From NCBI RefSeq assembly GCF_016615955.1, contig NZ_CP067113.1, positions 806,001-870,000 of the forward strand: a stretch of 64,000 bases of DNA, in the 5' to 3' direction. The notes beneath the pieces were generated by a model. That model had not been told where the DNA came from. It made no database searches and saw only the letters and a program-made list of their open reading frames with translations. Positions 3,016 through 60,321 of this stretch are shown here, one piece after another; within the stretch, counting starts at the first letter, position 1, and the number at the start of each line of letters is the position of its first letter. Source of the DNA: Luteimonas sp. MC1750 (GTDB taxonomy: Bacteria > Pseudomonadota > Gammaproteobacteria > Xanthomonadales > Xanthomonadaceae). The translations under genes were made by a program, and so were the position numbers.

Positions 3016-5541
3016 CTACTGGGCGAGCTCTGCGGCGAGGAACCGCGCCGTCCTGCTGCGTCGGTGGCCCGCCACCTTGGCCGGTTGGCCCACGACCACG
3101 ACCCGGCCACCGTCCTGCCCGGCCCCGGGTCCCATGTCGATGATCCAGTCACTGTCGGCGGCCACGCGCATGTCGTGCTCGACCATCAGCACCGTGTTGC
3201 CGGCGTCGACCAGCGACTGCAGCTGCTGCATCAACCGGTCGACATCGGCCGGGTGCAGCCCGGTGGTGGGCTCGTCGAGCACGTACACCGTGTCGCGGCG
3301 CTGGGCGCGCTGCAGCTCGGTGGCGAGCTTGATCCGCTGCGCCTCGCCGCCCGAAAGCTCGGTGGCGGGCTGGCCCAGGCGCAGGTAGCCCAGGCCCACT
3401 TCCTCCAGCACCTTTAGCGGACGCAGCACCGCCGCATCGTCGGCGAAGAACCGCGCGGCCTCGGCCACGGTCATGGCCAGCACCTCGGCGATGTTGCGGC
3501 CTTCCAGCGTGATTGCCAGCGTCGCCGCGTTGTAGCGGGCGCCGTGGCAGTCGGGGCAGGGGGCGTACACGCTCGGCATGAACAGCAGTTCCACGCACAC
3601 GGAGCCTTCGCCCTCGCAGGTCGCGCAGCGCCCCTTGGCGACGTTGAACGAGAAGCGGCCGGCGTCGTAGCGGCGCTTGCGTGCGGCCTGCGTGGCCGCG
3701 AAGCGCTTGCGCACGTGGTCGAACAGGCCGGTGTAGGTCGCCAGGTTGGAGCGCGGCGTGCGGCCGATGGGCTTCTGGTCCACCTGCACCAGGCGGCGCA
3801 CCTGCTCCAGGCCCTCGACGCGGCCCGTGGCGTCCTGCGCGTCGCGGCGTTCCAGCGGATCGACCTCCTCTTCCGTATCGCCCGGTGCGTGCCCGAGGTG
3901 GGCGGCAAGCAGTTCAACCAGGGCCTGGCTGACGAGCGAGGACTTGCCGGAGCCGGACACGCCGGTGACGGTGGCCAGCACGCCCAGCGGGATGTCGACG
4001 TCGACCTGGTCGAGGTTGTTGCGGGTGACCTCGCGCATGCGCAGCCAGCCCGTGGGCGTGCGTGGCGCGCGCGCCGGCCGCGGTGCGCCGTCGAACAGAT
4101 ACCGCCGCGTGCTCGACGCCTCGACCTGCTGGAGCCCGGCCGGCGGCCCGCTGTACAGCACGCGTCCACCGTGTTCGCCGGCACCCGGCCCGACGTCCAC
4201 GATCCAGTCGGCATGGCGGATCACGTCCATCTCGTGTTCGACGACGAACAGCGTGTTGCCGACCTCCTTCAGCGCGTGCAGCGCGCGCAGCAGCGACTCC
4301 GTATCGGCGGGATGCAGGCCGGCCGAAGGTTCGTCCAGCACGTACACCACGCCGAACAGGTGCGAGCGGATCTGGGTGGCCAGGCGCAGGCGCTGCAGTT
4401 CGCCCGGCGACAGCGTCGGCGTGGTGCGCTCCAGCGTCAGGTAGCCCAGCCCCAGCTGTTCGACGATGCGGATGCGGGCCAGCAGGTCGGCGGCGATGCG
4501 CTGCGCCGCCACCGCCTGCTCGGGATGCTGCTTCGTGGTGCCGGTCTTTCCATTCGCAGCGGGCTCGAGCAGCCTCGCCACCTCGGTCAGCGGCCGCTGC
4601 GACAGGGCGCCGATGTCGAGGCCGGCGAACGTGACCGACAGCGCCTCGCGGCGCAGGCGCTTGCCGTCGCAGGTGGGACACGCGGTGCTCAGCAGGTACA
4701 GCGACACGCGCCGCTTGATCAGCGGGCTCTGCGTGTTGGCGAAGGTGTGCAGCAGGTAGCGGCGCGCGCTGGTGAATGTGCCCATGTAGCTGGGCTCCAT
4801 CTTCCGCCGCAGCGCGCTTTGGGTCTCGGCCAGGGTGAAGCCCGCGTACACCGGCACCACGGGCTGCTCGTCGGTGAACAGGATCCAGTCGCGGGTCTTC
4901 TTCGGCAGCCGGTGCCAGGGCAGGTCAACGTCGTGGCCGAGCGTGGTCAGGATGTCGCGCAGGTTCTGCCCGTGCCAGGCCAGCGGCCACGCGGCCACGG
5001 CACGCTCGCGGATGCTGAGGTTGCGGTCGGGCACCATCGAGGCTTCGGTCGCGTCGTAGACCCGGCCCAGGCCATGGCATTCCGGACATGCGCCCGCCGG
5101 CGTGTTCGGCGAGAACCCGTCGGCATGGATGATGTCCTGGCCCGGCGGATACAGGCCGGCGCGCGAGTACAGCATGCGCAGCGAATTGGAGATGGTGGTG
5201 ACGCTGCCGACCGAGGAGCGCGTGCTGGGCGATCCCCGCTGCTGCTGCAGGGCGACGGCAGGCGGCAGGCCCTCGATGGAATCGACGTCGGGAACGCCGG
5301 CCTGGTCGATCAGGCGCCGCGCATAGGGCGAGATCGAATCGAGGTAGCGCCGCTGGGCCTCGGCGAAAAGGGTGCCGAAGGCCAGCGACGACTTGCCGGA
5401 GCCCGAGATGCCGGTGAACACGACCAGCGCGTCGCGCGGGATGTCGACGTCGACGTCGCGGAGGTTGTGCTCGCGCGCGCCGCGGACCTGCACGAAGGCG
5501 CTGGTGGGGGCGGATTCGCGGGGTCTGGTGGGGCGGGCCAT
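3016..5541 (-). CDS. UvrA-like ABC ATPase (UvrA2-type, excision-repair paralogue)
   Basis: 841 residues with two ABC ATPase halves. The first has Walker [10 protein letters not shown] (about 44-52), zinc-knuckle CPECHG and CPTCDG motifs, signature [12 protein letters not shown] and Walker [15 protein letters not shown]. The second has GVSGSGKSS, a CATCEGEG zinc motif, [12 protein letters not shown] and [16 protein letters not shown]. It is about 100 residues shorter than canonical UvrA (~940), and the region between the first Walker A and first zinc module is compact, as in UvrA2 proteins that lack the UvrB-binding insertion. Such paralogues are linked to tolerance of DNA-intercalating drugs or auxiliary repair. 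No uvrB or uvrC is nearby. Canonical UvrA is unlikely given the length. Confidence 0.85.
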
Positions 5542-13913: not shown

Positions 13914-14031
13914 GTCTGCGACCCCTTCAGATCGATCGCCCGCCAAGCTGTTGATCTGAAACCCCTCTCACTCCCTGAGACCGCCCGGTGCCGGAATCCG
14001 TCCGACGGCCGGGCTTGCCCTTTCCCGGCAA

Positions 14032-14049
14032 GGTAAATAGATTTTTACC
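14032..14049. promoter_or_regulatory. Candidate LexA operator before lexA
   Basis: A perfect inverted repeat, GGTAAA-N6-TTTACC, ends one base before the lexA ATG at 14051. The centre holds A/T-rich sequence that could also serve as a -10 box. No Shine-Dalgarno is visible between it and the ATG, so the message may be leaderless. The position suits autorepression of the lexA-imuA-imuB-dnaE2 operon. Xanthomonad LexA proteins are known to use operators unlike the E. coli SOS box, so sequence alone cannot prove it. Confidence 0.55.
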
Positions 14050-14050
14050 C

Positions 14051-14725
14051 ATGACCGACGACCTCACCCCCCGACAGCGCGACGTGCTCGATTTCATCCA
14101 GGCCCATGCCGGGGCCGAGGGCGCGCCGCCCACGCTGCAGCAGATCGCCGACGCCTTCGGCTTCCGCCAGGCCTGCGCGGCGCACAAGCACGTGCGCCGG
14201 CTGCAGCAGGCGGGTTACCTGGAGGTTCGACCCAACGAGGCGCGCGGGATCCGCGTGGTGGGCGGCCTGGCGCAGGGCGGCGCGTCGGGCCGGGCAGGGC
14301 GCGGGCGCCAGGTCCCCGGCACCCGGCTGAAGGTCCGCGACGACCGCCTGGAACTGCCCGTGCTCGGCCGCGTGGCCGCGGGTTCGCCGATCAGCGCCGA
14401 TGCCGGCATCGAGCGCCACGTGCTGCTCGACCGCGCGCTGTTTTCAAGCCGCCCCGACTACCTGCTGCGGGTGAAGGGCGATTCGATGCGCGACGACGGC
14501 ATCTTCGACGGCGACCTGGTGGCGGTGCAGCGCGCCAGCGACGCGCGCAACGGCCAGGTGGTGGTGGCGCGCATCGACGGCGAGATCACCATCAAGCGGC
14601 TGGAACGCACGCGCGCGCGGCTGCGGCTCTTGCCGCGCAATCCGGACTACGCGCCGATCGAGGTGCCGGCGGGCAGCGACTTCGCCATCGAAGGCATCTA
14701 CTGCGGACTGGTGCGCGCGGAATGA
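14051..14725 (+). CDS. lexA: LexA-type SOS repressor (LexA2, mutagenesis-cassette copy)
   Basis: 224 residues. An N-terminal winged helix (MTDDLTPRQRDVLDFIQAHA; TLQQIADAFGFRQACAAHKH) is joined by a basic Gly/Arg-rich linker to an S24 autoprotease domain. The cleavage site is Ala110-Gly111 in GRVAAGSP. The catalytic pair is Ser145 (GDSMRDDG) and Lys182 (GEITIKRLE), with the same 35- and 37-residue spacings as E. coli LexA. It should self-cleave on RecA filaments and derepress this operon. The linker is longer than in E. coli LexA (202 aa), and the recognition helix differs (FRQACAAHKHVRRL), in line with a different operator. imuA follows with an ATGA overlap. Confidence 0.92.
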   Translation: MTDDLTPRQRDVLDFIQAHAGAEGAPPTLQQIADAFGFRQACAAHKHVRRLQQAGYLEVRPNEARGIRVVGGLAQGGASGRAGRGRQVPGTRLKVRDDRLELPVLGRVAAGSPISADAGIERHVLLDRALFSSRPDYLLRVKGDSMRDDGIFDGDLVAVQRASDARNGQVVVARIDGEITIKRLERTRARLRLLPRNPDYAPIEVPAGSDFAIEGIYCGLVRAE

Positions 14726-15369
14726 ACGCGATGCCGGCCCCTGCGATGCCCGCTCCCGCGGCGCCCCCCGACCTCGACGCGATGCTGTCGGCGCGCACGG
14801 TGTGGCGCGCGGCGCGGGCGCCGGTGGTGGCCGACGACGGCGAGCCGACGGGGCACGCCGCGCTCGATGCGCTGCTGCCGCAGGGCGGCTGGCCGCGCGC
14901 GGCGCTGACCGAGCTGCTGCTGCCGGCCGACGGCGTGGGCGAGCTGTCGCTGCTGCTGCCGACGCTGGCGCGGCTGACCCGGGCCGGCGGCGTCGTGGCG
15001 CTGGTGGCGCCGCCCTACCTGCCATATGCGCCGGCGTGGCAGGCGGCAGGGGTGGACCTGCGGCAGCTCGAGATCATCGAGGCCGACGCGCGCGGCGCGC
15101 TGTGGGCCTTCGAGCAGTGCCTGCGCAGCGCCGCCTGCGCGGCGGTGCTGGGCTGGCCGCTGCAGGCCGATGCGCAGGCGCTGCGGCGGCTGCAGGTGGC
15201 CGCCGACAGCGGCGACTGCCTGGGCTTCGCCTTCCGCGATGCCAAGCACGCGGCCAATCCCTCGCCGGCGGCGCTGCGGATGGAGTATTCGGCGGCGGGC
15301 GAGGGCGGCTGGCACGTGCGCAAATGCCGCGGCGCCAACCCGCCCACCCGCGCCGTCCAGCTGTCCTGA
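14722..15369 (+). CDS. imuA: Translesion synthesis accessory protein ImuA
   Basis: 215 residues, RecA/SulA-like ImuA. After an Ala/Pro-rich start it contains VWRA, TGHAALDALLPQGGWPRAAL and TELLLPADGVGELSLLLPTL, the degenerate P-loop region of the family, then VALVAPPYLPYAPAWQAAGV. No true Walker A lysine is visible, as usual for ImuA. It works with ImuB and DnaE2 in damage-induced mutagenesis. It overlaps lexA by four bases and is followed seven bases later by imuB. Confidence 0.88.
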   Translation: MNAMPAPAMPAPAAPPDLDAMLSARTVWRAARAPVVADDGEPTGHAALDALLPQGGWPRAALTELLLPADGVGELSLLLPTLARLTRAGGVVALVAPPYLPYAPAWQAAGVDLRQLEIIEADARGALWAFEQCLRSAACAAVLGWPLQADAQALRRLQVAADSGDCLGFAFRDAKHAANPSPAALRMEYSAAGEGGWHVRKCRGANPPTRAVQLS

Positions 15370-15376
15370 GGCCGCC

Positions 15377-16858
15377 GTGCTCTGGGCCTGCATCGCGCTG
15401 CCGCGGCTGGCGCTGGACGCCGTCCTCCGCCGGGTGCCGGATCCGTCGCGGCCGCTGGCCCTGGTCTCCGGCCCCGCGCAGCTGCGCCACCTGCACGCGG
15501 TCAACGCCGCCGCCGCCGAGGCCGGGCTGAAGGCCGGCATGCGCCTGTCCGCCGCGCACGCGCTGCTGGCGGACGTGTCGATGGTCGACCACGATCCCGC
15601 GGCCGACGCGCGCTGGCAGCGCTTCCTCGCCGCCTGGGCCTATCGCCACAGCTCGCAGGTGAGCGCGCAGTGGCCGGGCGCGATCGTGCTGGAGGTACGC
15701 GCCAGCTTCCGCCTGTTCGGGCCTTGGCCGCGCTTCGAGGCGCGCCTGCGCGAGGAGCTCGATGGCCTCGGCTTCAGCCACCGCATCGCGCTGGCGCCGA
15801 CGCCGCGCGCGGCGCGGGTCTTCGCCGGCCTGCGCGACGGCTTCGCGGTCACCAGCGGAAGCGCCATGCGCGAGGCGCTGGCGCGGGTGCCGGTGCGCCG
15901 CGCCGCGCTGCCCGGCAACGCCGGCGAGCGCCTGCAGCGCATGGGCCTGCGCACGCTGGGCGACCTGCGCGCGCTGCCGCGCGACGGGCTGCGCCGGCGC
16001 TTCGGCATCGAGCTGCTGCAGCACCTCGACCGCCTGCACGGCGATGCCGACGATCCGCTCGCGCTCTATGCGCCGGCGGACCACTTCGACGGCCGCATCG
16101 AGCTCGGCTTCGAGGTCGAAAGCCACCAGGCGCTGCTGTTCCCGCTGCGCCGGCTGGTCACCGACCTCGCCACGTATCTCTCCGCGCGCGACGGCGGGGT
16201 GCAGCGCTTCAGCCTGCGCCTGGAGCACGAGGCGCGGCACGCCCTGCCTTCGCACGAGGCCGACCAGGTGCAGCACGACGCCGTGCGCTTCACCGAGGTG
16301 CCGGTCGGGCTGCTCGCCGCCGAGCGCGACGCGGGGCTGCTGTTCGAACTCACCCGCAACCGCCTGGAGCAGGTGGCGCTGCCGGCGCCGGTGATCGGCC
16401 TGCGCCTGCTGGCGCGCGAGCTGCCGCCCTTCGTCCCGGCCGAGCGCGACCTGTTCGATACCCGTCCGGCGCAGGCGGTGCCCTGGCCGCAGCTGCGCGA
16501 GCGCCTGCGCGCGCGCCTCGGCGACGAGGCCGTGCATCGCGTGGCACCTGCCGGTGATCCACGTCCCGAACGCGCCTGGCGGCGCGCCGACGCGGGCGAG
16601 GGCGGCGACGCGGCCTGCGCCACGCCCGCGCCAGCGCGCCCGCCGCGGCCGGCCTGGCTGCTGCCACGCCCGGTGCCGCTGCGCGATGCCCAACTGCGCA
16701 TCGTGTCCGGCCCGGAGCGGCTGGAGAGCGGCTGGTGGGACGGCGAGGACGCGCGCCGCGACTACTACGTGCTGGAGACCTCGCGCGGCCAGCGGGCCTG
16801 GGCGTTCGCGCCGCCGGGCGAGCTCGGCGGCTGGATGCTGCACGGGTGGTTCGCATGA
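15377..16858 (+). CDS. imuB: Inactive Y-family polymerase homologue ImuB
   Basis: 493 residues from GTG 15377; this start removes ~117 upstream shadow codons and gives the typical opening [20 protein letters not shown]. It has Y-family palm, fingers and thumb segments ([52 protein letters not shown]). The palm lacks the metal-binding acids of active Pol IV/V, where ALPRL stands in place of the D-x-D strand, as in other ImuB proteins. It acts as a hub linking the beta clamp, ImuA and DnaE2. The tail [20 protein letters not shown] is the usual end of the family. Confidence 0.9.
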
Positions 16859-16886
16859 GCGGCCCCGAGGCAGGCGGCGGCCCGCC

Positions 16887-19800
16887 ATGAGCCGCGACGA
16901 CGACCACGACGACCTGCCTCCGGGCGTGGCGCCGGACACGCCAGGCGCGCGTCCGCCGCGCATCGTGCGCATGCAGCGCCAGCTGCAGATGCAGTTGCGC
17001 TTCGAGGCCGCCAACGATCCCGGCGGTGGGCCCGCCGCGGAGCTGCCGGCCTATGCCGAACTGCACTGCCTGTCCGACTTCAGCTTCCTGCGCGGCGCGG
17101 CCAGCGCGGAAGAGCTGTTCACCCGCGCCGCACAGTGCGGCTACGAGGCGCTGGCGATCACCGACGAATGCTCGCTGGCCGGCATCGTGCGCGCGCACGA
17201 GGCGGCGAAGATCACCGGGGTGAAGCTGGTGGTGGGCGCGGAGTTCCGGCTCGACGACGGCCTGCGCCTGGTGCTGCTGGTCGAGGACGCCGCGGGCTAT
17301 GCGCGACTGTGCCGGCTGATCACCACCGCGCGCCGCGCGGCGACCAAGGGCGAGTACCGCCTGTCGCGCGCCGATATCGAAGCCCTGTTTCTTTCGCACG
17401 GGAATGGCCGGGAAATCGACTGTGGGAGCGGCTATAGCCGCGATGTGGACATGGCTGTGCCGTCGCATCAGGCAATCGCGGCTGTAGCCGCTCCTACAGA
17501 AGCGGGGGGCGGGTTGTTTGCGCTGTGGCTGCCTGGCCGGGGGGCGGATGCGGGGGAGGGTGCGTGGCTGAAGCGCGTCTTCGCCGACCGCGCCCACCTC
17601 GCCGTCGAATTGCACCGCGAGGACGACGATGCCGCGCGCCTGGCGCGCCTGCTCGCGCTGGCCGACCAGCTCGGCCTCACGCCGCTGGCCGCCGGCGACG
17701 TGCACATGGCCACGCGCCGCCAGCGCGTGCTGCAGGACACGATGGTCGCGATCCGCCACGGGCTGCCGCTGGCCGATGCCGGCGCCCACCTGTTCCGCAA
17801 CGGCGAGCGCCACCTGCGGCACCGCTACACGCTGGGCAACATCCATCCGCGCGCGCTGCTGGACAACGCCGCCGCGCTCGCGCGCCGCTGCCGGTTCTCG
17901 ATGTCCGAGGTCAGCTACACCTATCCGGCCGAGCTGGTGCCGGCAGGCGAGACGCCGGCCAGCCACCTGCGCAAGCTGACCGAGGCCGGCATGCGCCGGC
18001 GCTGGCCCAATGGCCCCACGCCGAAGGTCGCCGCGCAGATCGAAGGCGAACTCGCGCTGATCGCCGAGCTCCAGTACGAAGCCTTCTTCCTCACCGTCGA
18101 GGACATCGTCCGCTTCGCGCGCGGGCAGGGGATCCTCTGCCAGGGCCGTGGTTCGGCGGCCAACTCGGCGGTGTGCTTCGCGCTGGGCATCACCTCGGTC
18201 GATCCCGCCGAGAGCCGGCTGCTGATGGCGCGTTTCCTGTCGAAGGCGCGCAACGAGCCGCCCGACATCGACGTCGACTTCGAGCACGAACGGCGCGAGG
18301 AGGTGATGCAGTACGTCTACCGCAAGTACGGCCGCGAACGCGCGGCGCTGGCCGCGACCGTGATCCGCTACCGCGGCAAGAGCGCGGTGCGCGACGTGGC
18401 CAAGGCCTTCGGCCTGCCGCCCGACCAGGTCACGCTGCTGGCCGGGTGCTTCGGCTGGGGCAATGGCGAGACGCCGATGGACCGGCGCCTGGCCGATGTC
18501 GGCTTCGACATCGACAACCCGCTCATCGCGCGCATCCTCGGCGTCACCACGCTGCTGCGCGGCAAGCCGCGGCATCTCTCGCAGCACGTCGGTGGTTTCG
18601 TGATCTCGGACGCGCCGCTGTGGAACCTGGTGCCGGTGGAGAACGCCGCCATGGCCGAGCGCACCATCATCCAGTGGGAGAAGGACGACCTGGAGGCGCT
18701 GGGCCTGCTCAAGGTCGATTGCCTGGCGCTCGGCATGCTGACCTGCATCCGCAAGGCGCTGGACCTGGTGCGCAAGCACCACGGCCGCGACCTGGAGCTG
18801 GCCACCATCCCGAACGAGGACCCGCCGACCTACGCGATGATCCAGCGCGCCGACACCGTGGGCGTGTTCCAGATCGAGTCGCGCGCGCAGATGGCGATGC
18901 TGCCGCGGCTGAAGCCCCGGACCTTCTACGACCTGGTGGTGGAAGTGGCGATCGTGCGCCCGGGCCCGATCCAGGGCGACATGGTGCATCCCTACCTGCG
19001 CCGGCGCATGGGCCAGGAGCGGGTGACGTATCCCTCGCCGGGCATCGAGGAAATCCTCGGCCCCACGCTGGGCGTGCCGCTGTTCCAGGAGCAGGTGATG
19101 GAGCTGGTGATCCACGCCGGCTACACGCCCGAGGAGGCCGACCACCTGCGTCGTTCGATGGCCGCCTGGCGCCATGGCGGCGACATGGAACCGCACCGCC
19201 TGCGCATCCGCGAGCTGATGGAAGACAAGGGCTATGCGTCGGCGTTCATCGACCAGATCTTCGAGCAGATCAAGGGTTTCGGCTCCTACGGCTTCCCGCA
19301 GAGCCATGCGGCCTCGTTCGCCAAGCTGGTGTACGCGAGCTGCTGGCTGAAGCGCCATGCACCGGCGGCGTTCGCCTGCGCGCTCTTGAACTCGCAGCCG
19401 ATGGGCTTCTACTCACCCAGCCAGATCGTGCAGGACGCGCGCCGTGGCAAGGACGCGCGCCAGGGCGTGGATGTGCGGCCGGTGGAGATCGCCTGCAGCG
19501 AATGGGACTGCACCCTTGAATCCGTCCCACGCTCGCGCACGGATGCGCACCGGCACCCCCCGCTGGCCATCCGCCTTGGCCTGCGCATGGTCTCGGGACT
19601 GTCCGAAGCCACCGCACGCGCCATCGTCGCCGCGCGCGCGGAGCGTCCGTTCCGCGACGTCGCCGACCTCTGCCGCCGCGCCGGCCTCGACGAGCGCGCG
19701 CGCAGCCTGCTGGCCGAGGCCGGTGCATTGCAGTCCATCGCCGGGCACCGGCACGACGCGCGCTGGCAGGTCGCGGGCATCGAACGCCAGCGTCCGCTGC

Positions 19801-20264
19801 TGCCCGGCAGCCCGGAGGAAATCGACGTGGCGCTGCCGGCGCCCACCACCGGCGAGGACGTGCTGTCCGACTACCGCACCCTCGGCCTCAGCCTGCGCGC
19901 GCATCCGCTCGCCCTGCTGCGCGACCAGCTGCGCGCGCGCCGGCTGCTGGGTTCGGCCGACCTGCACGGCCGGCGCCACGGCAGCCACGTCGCCACCGCC
20001 GGCATCGTCACCCAGCGGCAGAAGCCGCAGACCGCCAGCGGCACCATCTTCGTCACCCTGGAGGACGAGGCCGGCATGGTGAACGTGGTGGTCTGGCCGC
20101 GCGTGGCCGAGCGCTGGCGCAAGGCGCTGCTGGGCGCCACGCTGCTCGGCGTGCGCGGGCGCTGGGAACGCGTGGACGGCGTGGAGCACCTGATCGCCGG
20201 CGGGCTCGAGGACCTGTCCGGCCTGCTCGGCGGGCTGCCCGCCGAATCGCGCGACTTCCGCTGA
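16887..20264 (+). CDS. dnaE2: Error-prone DNA polymerase III alpha DnaE2
   Basis: 1125 residues, C-family polymerase. The N-terminal PHP domain starts at about residue 52 ([18 protein letters not shown]). The polymerase acids lie in [15 protein letters not shown] near residue 460. Helix-hairpin-helix and OB domains follow, and the C-terminus ends [10 protein letters not shown]. Residues ~179-205 (CGSGYSRD...VAAPT) are encoded by a REP element inserted in frame within the PHP domain, which lengthens the protein over the ~1080 of relatives. DnaE2 performs the mutagenic synthesis of the ImuA-ImuB-DnaE2 mutasome. ATG 16887, 28 bases after imuB, is chosen; no strong ribosome site is visible there. 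Confidence 0.9.
17421..17500. repeat. GTAG-type REP pair inside dnaE2
   Basis: An 80-bp imperfect palindrome with the two REP halves facing each other: TGTGGGAGCGGCTATAGCCG at the left and the matching GCGGCTGTAGCCGCTCCTAC at the right. It is the same family as the elements at 21540, 34009, 54722 and 60184, but the left foot GTAG has become GTGG. It is read in frame through dnaE2. Confidence 0.85.
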
Positions 20265-20347
20265 ACGGGTCGCGCAGGCCCCGGCTGTCCGCGGGGTTCA
20301 TCCCGCGTTGAGACCCGCGCCCCGGGCAGGCCATAGACTGGGCCGAC

Positions 20348-21514
20348 ATGTCCCCACCGCGCCCGCCCATGTCGTCCATCCTCCGCGTCCTTGCCCTCTG
20401 TGCCCTGATGGCCGGCTGCAGCGCGCAGCCGCAGCCGCCGCCGCAGCCCGAGGTGGAGACGATCAGCGAGGCCAACGGCGCCGGCGAGTTCATCTCCGCG
20501 CCGGTCGAGACCGCCCCGAAGCCCTATGACGTGCGGACCGGGACCGACTGGCCCGAGGCCACGCTGGCCGACGGCAGCGCCGCGGTCAGCTGCGAACTCG
20601 ACTACGCCACCGCCGGCGACGGCGAACCGCTCGCCGACCTGTCGTTCGCGAGCGTCAACGACGCGCTCGCGCCCTGCCAGGAGGTCGGCCTGCTGCGCCT
20701 GCGTTACCAGGGCAAGATCAACGCCGGCTTCCATGCCCTGGTCGAACGCGTGGCCGCGGTCGCCGACCGCATGGCCATCGGCAAGCGCGTGCTCGACATC
20801 GATTCCACCGGCGGACAGGTGGAGGACGCGGTCAAGGCCGGCGACGCCATCGGCGCCTCGGGCTGGACCATCTGGGTGCGCGAGGGCGCCAGCTGCCACA
20901 GCGCCTGCGTGCTGATCCTGGGCGCCGGCGACGTGCGCATGATCTCCGGCCCGGTCGGCATCCACCGCATCATCCGCATGAGTTCCACCGCGACCTCGCG
21001 CGGACAGCTCAACGAGGAGCTGCAGGCGGTCTACGGCCGGGTCAAGGAATACCTGGCGCGCAACGGCGTGGCCGTGGCCGTGGCCGACATGATGATGGCC
21101 GTGCCCAACCGCAACCTGCGCCTGCTCACCGCCGAGGAGCTGCTGGAATACGGCCTGGACGGCACCAATCCGGCGCAGGACGACCTCGACCGGCTGCAGC
21201 TGATGCGCAAGTGCGGCGAGGACTTCGTGCGCCGCCGCGACGCCTTCCAGCGCAACTTCGACCGCCAGTGCAAGATGCCCGAGCGCGAGCTCGAGGAACT
21301 CAACGAGTGCGGGCTGACCCTGCGCGAGGAGTTCGGCTTCCCCGACGCGACCTGCCCGGACGACAGTCCGATGAGCGAATTCGACGTCGTCCGCAGCGCC
21401 TTCTTCCAGCGCCGCGAACCCGCCCCCGAAGTGTCGGTGGACGAGCGGGGCAGCGGGGAGACCGGATCCCTGGCCGACGCCACCAGCGCATCCGGCACCA
21501 GCGGCTCCCCCTAG
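20348..21514 (+). CDS. ClpP-fold lipoprotein (COG3904-like periplasmic protein)
   Basis: 388 residues. A lipoprotein signal peptide ends at the lipobox LMAGCS (Cys at about 24). Residues ~110-260 resemble the ClpP/crotonase fold of COG3904 proteins: KRVLDIDSTGGQVEDAVKAG, then GASCHSACVLILGAGDVRMI with a Ser in the nucleophile position, and GPVGIHRI with a His. The C-terminal ~140 residues are charged, Cys-containing and end in a Ser/Gly-rich tail. Enzyme activity is unproven. ATG 20369 (MSSILRV) is a credible alternative start. TTGAGA (20308) and TAGACT (20334) could be a promoter, though with a 20-base spacer. A REP follows the gene. Confidence 0.65.
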   Translation: MSPPRPPMSSILRVLALCALMAGCSAQPQPPPQPEVETISEANGAGEFISAPVETAPKPYDVRTGTDWPEATLADGSAAVSCELDYATAGDGEPLADLSFASVNDALAPCQEVGLLRLRYQGKINAGFHALVERVAAVADRMAIGKRVLDIDSTGGQVEDAVKAGDAIGASGWTIWVREGASCHSACVLILGAGDVRMISGPVGIHRIIRMSSTATSRGQLNEELQAVYGRVKEYLARNGVAVAVADMMMAVPNRNLRLLTAEELLEYGLDGTNPAQDDLDRLQLMRKCGEDFVRRRDAFQRNFDRQCKMPERELEELNECGLTLREEFGFPDATCPDDSPMSEFDVVRSAFFQRREPAPEVSVDERGSGETGSLADATSASGTSGSP

Positions 21515-21539: not shown

Positions 21540-21608
21540 TGTAGGAGCAGCTACAGCTGCGATCCGGGTGCCTGGCGGCTGGCAATCGCAGCTGTAGCTG
21601 CTCCTACA
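21540..21608. repeat. GTAG-type REP pair
   Basis: A 69-bp element in the 3' space between two convergent genes. The left half is TGTAGGAGCAGCTACAGCTG and the right half GCAGCTGTAGCTGCTCCTAC. The arms form a long hairpin with a ~20-base loop, which could also act as a bidirectional transcription barrier. Confidence 0.88.
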
Positions 21609-34008: not shown

Positions 34009-34086
34009 TGTAGGAGCGGCTATAGCCGCGATCCCCAGTACCGATTGTCCCGGCAAAAGCCTATCGCGGCTGTAGCCGCTCCTACA
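34009..34086. repeat. GTAG-type REP pair
   Basis: A 78-bp element between convergent genes. Left half TGTAGGAGCGGCTATAGCCG, right half CGCGGCTGTAGCCGCTCCTA, separated by an unrelated ~35-base middle. Both terminal GTAG/CTAC feet are intact. Confidence 0.88.
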
Positions 34087-54726: not shown

Positions 54727-54796
54727 GAAGCGGCTACAGCCGCGATCGTGATCGCGACGGCGTCGCAGGGCGATCGCGGCTTTAGCCGCTCCTACA
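54722..54796. repeat. GTAG-type REP pair overlapping the hutG stop
   Basis: A 75-bp element. The left half TGTAGGAAGCGGCTACAGCC has one extra A; the right half is GCGGCTTTAGCCGCTCCTAC. The left GTAG supplies the TAG stop of hutG. It separates hutG from the convergent parE gene. Confidence 0.88.
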
Positions 54797-60123: not shown

Positions 60124-60321
60124 TTTGCCACGGATTGACGCGGACAAGGGCGGATTCACACGGATAGAGCGAAGACCTTCCAGTGTAGGAGCAGCTATAG
60201 CTGCGACCGCACTTCGGTCGCGATGTCGGGATCGCAGCTATAGCTGCTCCTACATCAGAAATGATCCTGCTTTTGCTTTATCCGTGTGAATCCGCCCTTG
60301 TCCGCGTCAATCCGTGGCAAA
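60124..60321. repeat. Perfect 43-bp inverted repeat around a nested REP
   Basis: Left arm 60124-60166 starts TTTGCCACGGATTGACG and ends CACACGGATA. Right arm 60279-60321 is its exact reverse complement (starts TATCCGTGTGAATCCG, ends CCGTGGCAAA). The 112-base interior holds a GTAG-type REP (60184-60254). The arms consist of spaced (A)CGGAT units. It fills most of the kdsA-eno gap. Confidence 0.9.
60184..60254. repeat. GTAG-type REP pair nested in the 43-bp palindrome
   Basis: A 71-bp element. Left half TGTAGGAGCAGCTATAGCTG, right half CGCAGCTATAGCTGCTCCTA, with a ~30-base middle that itself contains a small ACCGCACTTCGGT-type hairpin. Confidence 0.88.

Follow-up and report, generated by a model that had tools for sequence, protein, structure and literature searches.

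The window analysed here, a stretch of 64,000 nucleotides of the Luteimonas sp. MC1750 genome (G000), contains an intact dnaE2 (imuC) gene and its cassette, in the order lexA-like gene, imuA, imuB, dnaE2. The DnaE2/ImuC assignment is based on the sequence family and on the place of the gene after imuA. The gene in between is presumably imuB, judging by this gene order. A repetitive extragenic palindrome (REP) pair lies inside dnaE2. The features are as follows.

13988..14725, + strand: second lexA-like gene of the cassette
14722..15369, + strand: imuA (NCBIfam NF033429, 215 bits, cut-off 150), in the cassette of dnaE2
15377..16858, + strand: presumed imuB, start inferred from relatives
16887..20264, + strand: dnaE2 (imuC), intact, error-prone DNA polymerase of 1125 aa (NCBIfam NF004225, 1430 bits, cut-off 939)
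17388..17510, + strand: whole extra loop, about residues 168-208, from the alignment of 30 DnaE2 proteins against relatives without REPs
17421..17443, + strand: left arm of the REP pair, its foot mutated (TGTGGGAGCGGCTATAGCCGCGA); translated as C-G-S-G-Y-S-R-(D)
17444..17475, + strand: spacer between the arms, 32 nt, equal in length at the PHP-loop site in 6/6 genomes
17476..17498, - strand: right arm of the REP pair, in inverted orientation, its GTAG foot intact; the + strand reads (I)-A-A-V-A-A-P-T

The element at 17421-17498 is a head-to-head GTAG-type REP pair of 78 nt, or 26 codons, that encodes DnaE2 residues 179-204. Both arm cores (GGAGCGGCTATAGCCGCGA, 17425-17443, + strand; GGAGCGGCTACAGCCGCGA, 17476-17494, - strand) match the REP family pattern exactly, and the two inverted arms form a single hairpin. 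The feet are GTGG on the left and GTAG on the right. The first-pass annotation had described a REP of 80 bp at 17421-17500, adding about 27 residues without a stop or frame change. The in-frame reading is borne out by the uninterrupted, stop-free translation of 1125 aa and the start is correct, while the end has to be moved to 17498 and the count reduced to 26 residues. The element lies wholly within a conserved gene and is absent from the orthologues of REP-less genomes; the extra loop makes the protein about 35 residues longer in this region than, for example, the DnaE2 of G022 (L030). With up to three mismatches, the REP pattern has 12 matches in the window, compared with a mean of 2.0 and a maximum of 6 in shuffled sequences. 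Four more REP pairs, covering both subtypes, are found at 21544-21604, 34013-34082, 54727-54792 and 60188-60250.

DnaE2 contains the Pfam domains PHP, DNA_pol3_alpha, finger, HHH_6 and OB. A model of the entire protein was of low quality (mean pLDDT 54.5), and we therefore used one of the PHP domain, built from 74 sequences (mean pLDDT 82.7, pTM 0.83), which aligns with the E. coli DNA polymerase III alpha subunit at a TM score of 0.72 by query length. Residues 180-204 are modelled as coil with pLDDT < 50, between a helix (161-173) and a strand (210-214), so that the loop position suggested initially agrees with the predicted disorder. The metal-site motifs HQH and DHG of chain 2hpi, which we take to be the Thermus enzyme, align with HCL and DEC in DnaE2. 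Leu and Glu thus occupy the places of two His residues that are presumably metal ligands, and an effect of the insert on PHP activity, proposed earlier, is not supported by a site that appears degenerate already. The dnaE2 core has dN/dS values of 0.18-0.30 in 15 pairs, indicating purifying selection. Given the disordered loop, the already degenerate PHP domain and the purifying selection, the best reading of sequence and model is that the insert is most likely tolerated by DnaE2.

REP family, transposase and distribution of the insert

REP arms with at most one mismatch number 153 + 144 = 297 genome-wide, compared with 1 + 2 = 3 for the reversed control. The family is a multi-copy palindrome with a GTAG foot, of which the dnaE2 copy has one foot changed to GTGG; membership of the GTAG REPs suffices to explain the dnaE2 element. 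The genome contains one REP-associated tyrosine transposase (RAYT), recognised by NF047646 (111 bits, cut-off 80) and borderline by Pfam Y1_Tnp (21.9-23.4 against a cut-off of 23). REP pairs lie on both sides of it, as for a cognate RAYT. The transposases of G019 and G003 have REPs of the other subtype on their flanks, and searches of G013 and G016 found no RAYT. By analogy with the known RAYT-REP link, the insertion into dnaE2 may have been carried out by the RAYT.

The best named DnaE2 matches are Luteimonas terricola (G013; 80% in the best segment) and L. granuli (G016; 81%). In an alignment of 30 DnaE2 proteins, including that of the window, REP-coded residues occur at the PHP loop in 6 and are absent from 24. 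With 80 further named loci, REP-coded motifs are present in 8 of 110 rows, all from the six genomes already found. Exact REP arms, scanned in 12 genomes, number 9-224 in the five other insert-bearing genomes and 0 in seven sister genomes, which also lack the insert (six judged from the 30-protein alignment, G030 separately). In a tree of 23 DnaE2 proteins, from which the insert columns were left out for locus rows, the ten REP-tagged sequences form one clade with support 100/100. As far as sequence comparison goes, the insert is restricted to close relatives having the REP family. The first-pass annotation had expected such a limit, and it had named REP-less homologues with the same residues, or a gene broken elsewhere, as evidence against its reading; the arm-less sister genomes have no insert and the gene is intact.

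Three REP sites in DnaE2 and their history

The six genomes share the REP pair in the PHP loop (site 2). Further pairs are present near residue 44 (site 1) in G007, G016, G019 and G003, with a possible remnant in G013, and near residue 882 (site 3) in G016, G019 and G003; in G016 the right arm of site 3 is degenerate and escapes the arm pattern. The species of the window has only the PHP-loop copy. It branches inside the group that carries all three sites (supports 88/94 and 89/95, neither reaching the starred level), and has therefore probably lost the other two.

The spacer of site 2 is 32 nt long in 6/6 genomes, where the value for G007, which has extra tandem arms, is taken from its last left arm. 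G016, G019 and G003 likewise agree on 17 nt at site 1 and 24 nt at site 3, the exception being a 59-nt spacer at site 1 of G007. Elsewhere in these genomes, facing arms are separated by 10 to 89 nt, and the chance that two random frame-compatible dimers have equal spacer length is 5-14%. Equal length was seen in 1/12 orthologous dimer pairs outside dnaE2 and imuA, a set whose intergenic status was not checked singly (L256 may lie in a gene tail), in which three pairs share loci (L083, L272, L230) and L092 has an inner arm. Three L101 rows with flanks matching several places in both orientations were removed from this count, and the imuA pair (18/21 nt), being coding, was likewise left uncounted.

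The arms themselves differ in subtype. In G019 and G003, 5/6 DnaE2 arms are of the GGAGCAGCT type and the sixth (site 1, right) is still GGAGCGGCT, a switch that in the left arm exchanges Gly for Ser and Arg for Cys in the polymerase. In the stretches examined, the arm subtypes are 168 G, 15 A and 3 C in G000, 95 A and 11 G in G019, and 28 G, 29 A and 6 C in G016. These counts indicate that in G000 and G019 the translated DnaE2 arms follow the REP family that dominates the genome, with G016 mixed. The spacer sequences of G019 and G016 are identical at 9/32 positions at site 2 (chance 8.7) and 6/24 at site 3 (chance 6.8), with a weak similarity at site 1 (9/17, p 0.02). The site-2 spacers of G007 and G016 are similar (23/32).

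We consider it probable that a REPIN mobilised by a RAYT entered dnaE2 in the ancestor of the clade, survived there and has been inherited in place with changing arms. In detail, a REP pair (REPIN) of the GTAG superfamily would have entered the gene in the ancestor of the REP-bearing Luteimonas clade. It would have survived because its length is divisible by three, each arm can be read through in two of the three frames and the insertion point is a loop on the surface of a PHP domain that is degenerate. The frame would since have been kept by selection on the polymerase, with an insert that is itself neutral for the enzyme, and the arms would keep changing along with the REP family of the genome. 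The sequences at these sites suggest a single inherited insertion with arms overwritten in place. The 59-nt spacer and the extra tandem arms of G007, and the failure to find a RAYT in G013 and G016, speak against this history. As an alternative to overwriting, a different dimer with the same length may have taken the place of the first, because the spacers have changed more than the synonymous divergence of the gene predicts. A further candidate, spacer inversion by template switching (an idea taken from a passage of PMC8604942), found no support in a reverse-complement test.

Several independent insertions into a hot spot, as opposed to a single inherited event, would explain why spacer sequences and arm subtypes differ between species. 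Non-REP inserts at the same DnaE2 loops, and two apparently independent LexA insertions within a few residues of each other, also speak for this reading. We regard it as unlikely in view of the identical spacer lengths at three sites, the single clade in the tree and the similar G007 and G016 spacers.

Inherited copies that are immobilised or decaying agree with the distribution of GTGG feet, which are found in 8/29 DnaE2 arms and in 12/360 arms elsewhere in stretches of three genomes (Fisher p = 2.4e-5). The proportion is 8/27 without the two site-1 arms of G007, and 7/21 when G003, a near copy of G019, is left out as well. The first-pass annotation had noted the change of the left foot from GTAG to GTGG, which is correct, and had suggested that it fixed the copy. 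The over-representation supports this part in some measure; in the right foot, GTGG is a synonymous change of a Pro codon.

Conservation specific to the inserts was considered for G019 and G003, whose inserts at first seemed much better conserved than the rest of dnaE2, and rejected. Third positions changed at 3/124 sites in the inserts and at 24/352 in the neighbouring core; since the adjoining core codons are low too, the low insert divergence is read as a regional tract. A comparison of the two genomes (L051 vs L052) shows far lower divergence at both ends of dnaE2 than in the middle, a pattern resembling that left by recombination.

Turnover at fixed places is also seen outside dnaE2. Orthologous places in G000 and G019 hold REP pairs of different subtype and spacer (L010/L247, L011/L262, L083/L230, L098/L240, L099/L240), where sites persist while the element turns over.

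In-frame REPs in other genes

Coding-like frames run through 4/96 REP clusters in G000 (dnaE2, lexA and a J-domain-like protein twice), 3/73 in G019 (dnaE2 once, a J-domain-like protein twice) and 6/42 in G016 (dnaE2 thrice, an ABC ATPase and a methylmalonyl-CoA mutase fusion twice). The census covers sampled stretches around REPs, those of G019 and G016 including the dnaE2 locus on purpose, and its codon score overlooks inserts near gene ends, recovering 1/3 dnaE2 sites in G019 and no imuA in G016 or G019. Pfam backs the ABC ATPase and mutase identities. The G019 J-domain-like protein scores 27.7 with DnaJ against a cut-off of 27.8, and the G000 protein, which also has two REP sites, is named by its likeness to that of G019. 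The loci of the REPs in the J-domain-like proteins, the ABC ATPase and the mutase fusion are L090, L269, L296 and L303, the ABC ATPase and the mutase fusion both being from L. granuli.

LexA of G000 (L188:1501-2205; G000:C1:1137746-1138450; TIGR00498, 179 bits, cut-off 111) carries a G-type REP pair with a decayed right arm in the hinge between the DNA-binding and peptidase domains. The pair precedes the AAG motif, which we take to be the cleavage site. G003 LexA (L189:1501-2190) has an A-type pair in the hinge only a few residues from that of G000. No hinge REP is present in LexA of G016, G007 or G019, the genome nearest to G003. The two insertions therefore appear, from their sequences, to be independent; in G013 LexA a short GCGGCTGCAGCC stretch could be what is left of such a pair, and the case for independence would then be weaker. 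The C-terminus of ImuA is a REP-coded tail in G016, G019 and G003 (L276 ~7861, L306 ~6175, L307) and lacks one in the genome of the window, in a comparison without G007; G013 has a possible remnant. No REP insert was found in ImuB (six genomes, G007 in part) or in the second LexA (six genomes). Other C-termini also run into REP pairs, as seen in a scan that kept the last match per cluster and serves solely for this statement.

The REP peptides in DnaE2, LexA and ImuA could be adaptive, altering SOS mutagenesis through a mutator or tuning effect. The in-frame REPs in DnaE2 of six genomes, LexA of G000 and G003 and the ImuA tail of three genomes invite this reading, and PMC3733652 speculates in one passage that REP-tagged repair genes foster hypermutability. 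We give it little credence. The other tagged genes are functionally unrelated, the inserts sit in linkers and a disordered loop, and other C-termini are reached by REP pairs in the same way. A preference of REPs for SOS genes is suggestive only, because dnaE2 was ascertained by the finding itself and has to be excluded, and imuA lies in its cassette. It is equally doubtful that the REP/RAYT family repeatedly colonises SOS mutagenesis genes and rewrites its translated copies, so that the SOS repressor and the mutagenic polymerase owe some of their sequence to it and the mutation rate is possibly tuned to the benefit of the element.

A role of the hairpin at the RNA level, in an SOS-induced message, seems still less probable. 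Its energy of -60.2 kcal/mol (z = -7.0) is in keeping with such a role, but a strong hairpin is expected from any inverted pair of this kind, and 16800-20400 has no Rfam match up to E = 1. An artefact or a decaying gene can be dismissed, as the genome is a single contig of 2,990,802 bases and 99.99% complete, the site is filled in six assemblies, the frame is intact and dN/dS is low.

The left arm is read as C[RG]SGYSR[DE] or CRSSYSCD in the DnaE2 sites (window 17421-17498; L050, L051, L052) and as VGAA in the tagged LexA, ImuA, J-domain-like, ABC and mutase genes, which may reflect a frame bias or a target preference. A protein-database search with the REP-coded region of L050 DnaE2 returned 5 proteins up to E = 10 among 1333 candidates. 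All of them have the DnaE domain set, so the search gave no wider list of tagged proteins.

Relation to known palindromic elements

As a GTAG REP in frame within a gene, the Luteimonas dnaE2 element resembles the intragenic GTAG/CGTC REPs of PMC3733652 (2013). In the passages concerned, more than half of these are pairs or groups coding for 20-30 aa, the tagged proteins named include DnaE2, UvrABC, RecBCD and Pol I, and the recB REPs of X. campestris and X. oryzae lie at about one site. Harmless linker insertion and a mutator role are both weighed there. Since REP-tagged DnaE2 is named, an in-frame REP in this protein belongs to a kind already known. Luteimonas is not mentioned in that text, and LexA, ImuA and the cross-species history of a single element do not appear in those passages.

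The Rickettsia palindromic elements (RPE) are similarly mobile palindromes translated in frame inside conserved genes, according to a part of PMC2229807, where an RPE-tagged guanylate kinase is active with changed substrate affinity. They differ in being longer (105-146 bp), and that part mentions no RAYT. REPINs, as introduced in a portion of PMC3116915, share the inverted REP pair with a spacer and the tie to a RAYT, but are described there as extragenic, only 14 of the commonest 16-mers overlapping genes in P. fluorescens SBW25.

Among the open-access papers listed, we came across neither a description of REP-coded segments in LexA or ImuA nor one of REPs in Luteimonas. New here are the presence of up to three REP sites per DnaE2, their cross-species history with spacer lengths conserved despite the arm-subtype switch, the enrichment of GTGG feet in DnaE2 copies, and the in-frame REPs in the LexA hinge and the ImuA tail. 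Translated REPs can act as natural tags of one insertion across species, in which spacer length marks the event and arm subtype the ruling REP family, and make the in-place turnover of a REP family readable. The proposal of 2013 that mutability is affected when REPs insert into repair genes becomes testable in this genus, which is not known to include pathogens of concern here.

Other inserts occur at two of the DnaE2 sites. The DnaE2 of Xanthomonas sp. XNM01 (L133, ~4445-4840) carries an insertion of 133 aa at the PHP loop that lacks REP motifs. At the third site (~residue 882), other in-frame inserts are present in L143 (~6356) and in protein P0005, the former opening with a CCCTCTCCC-type inverted repeat.
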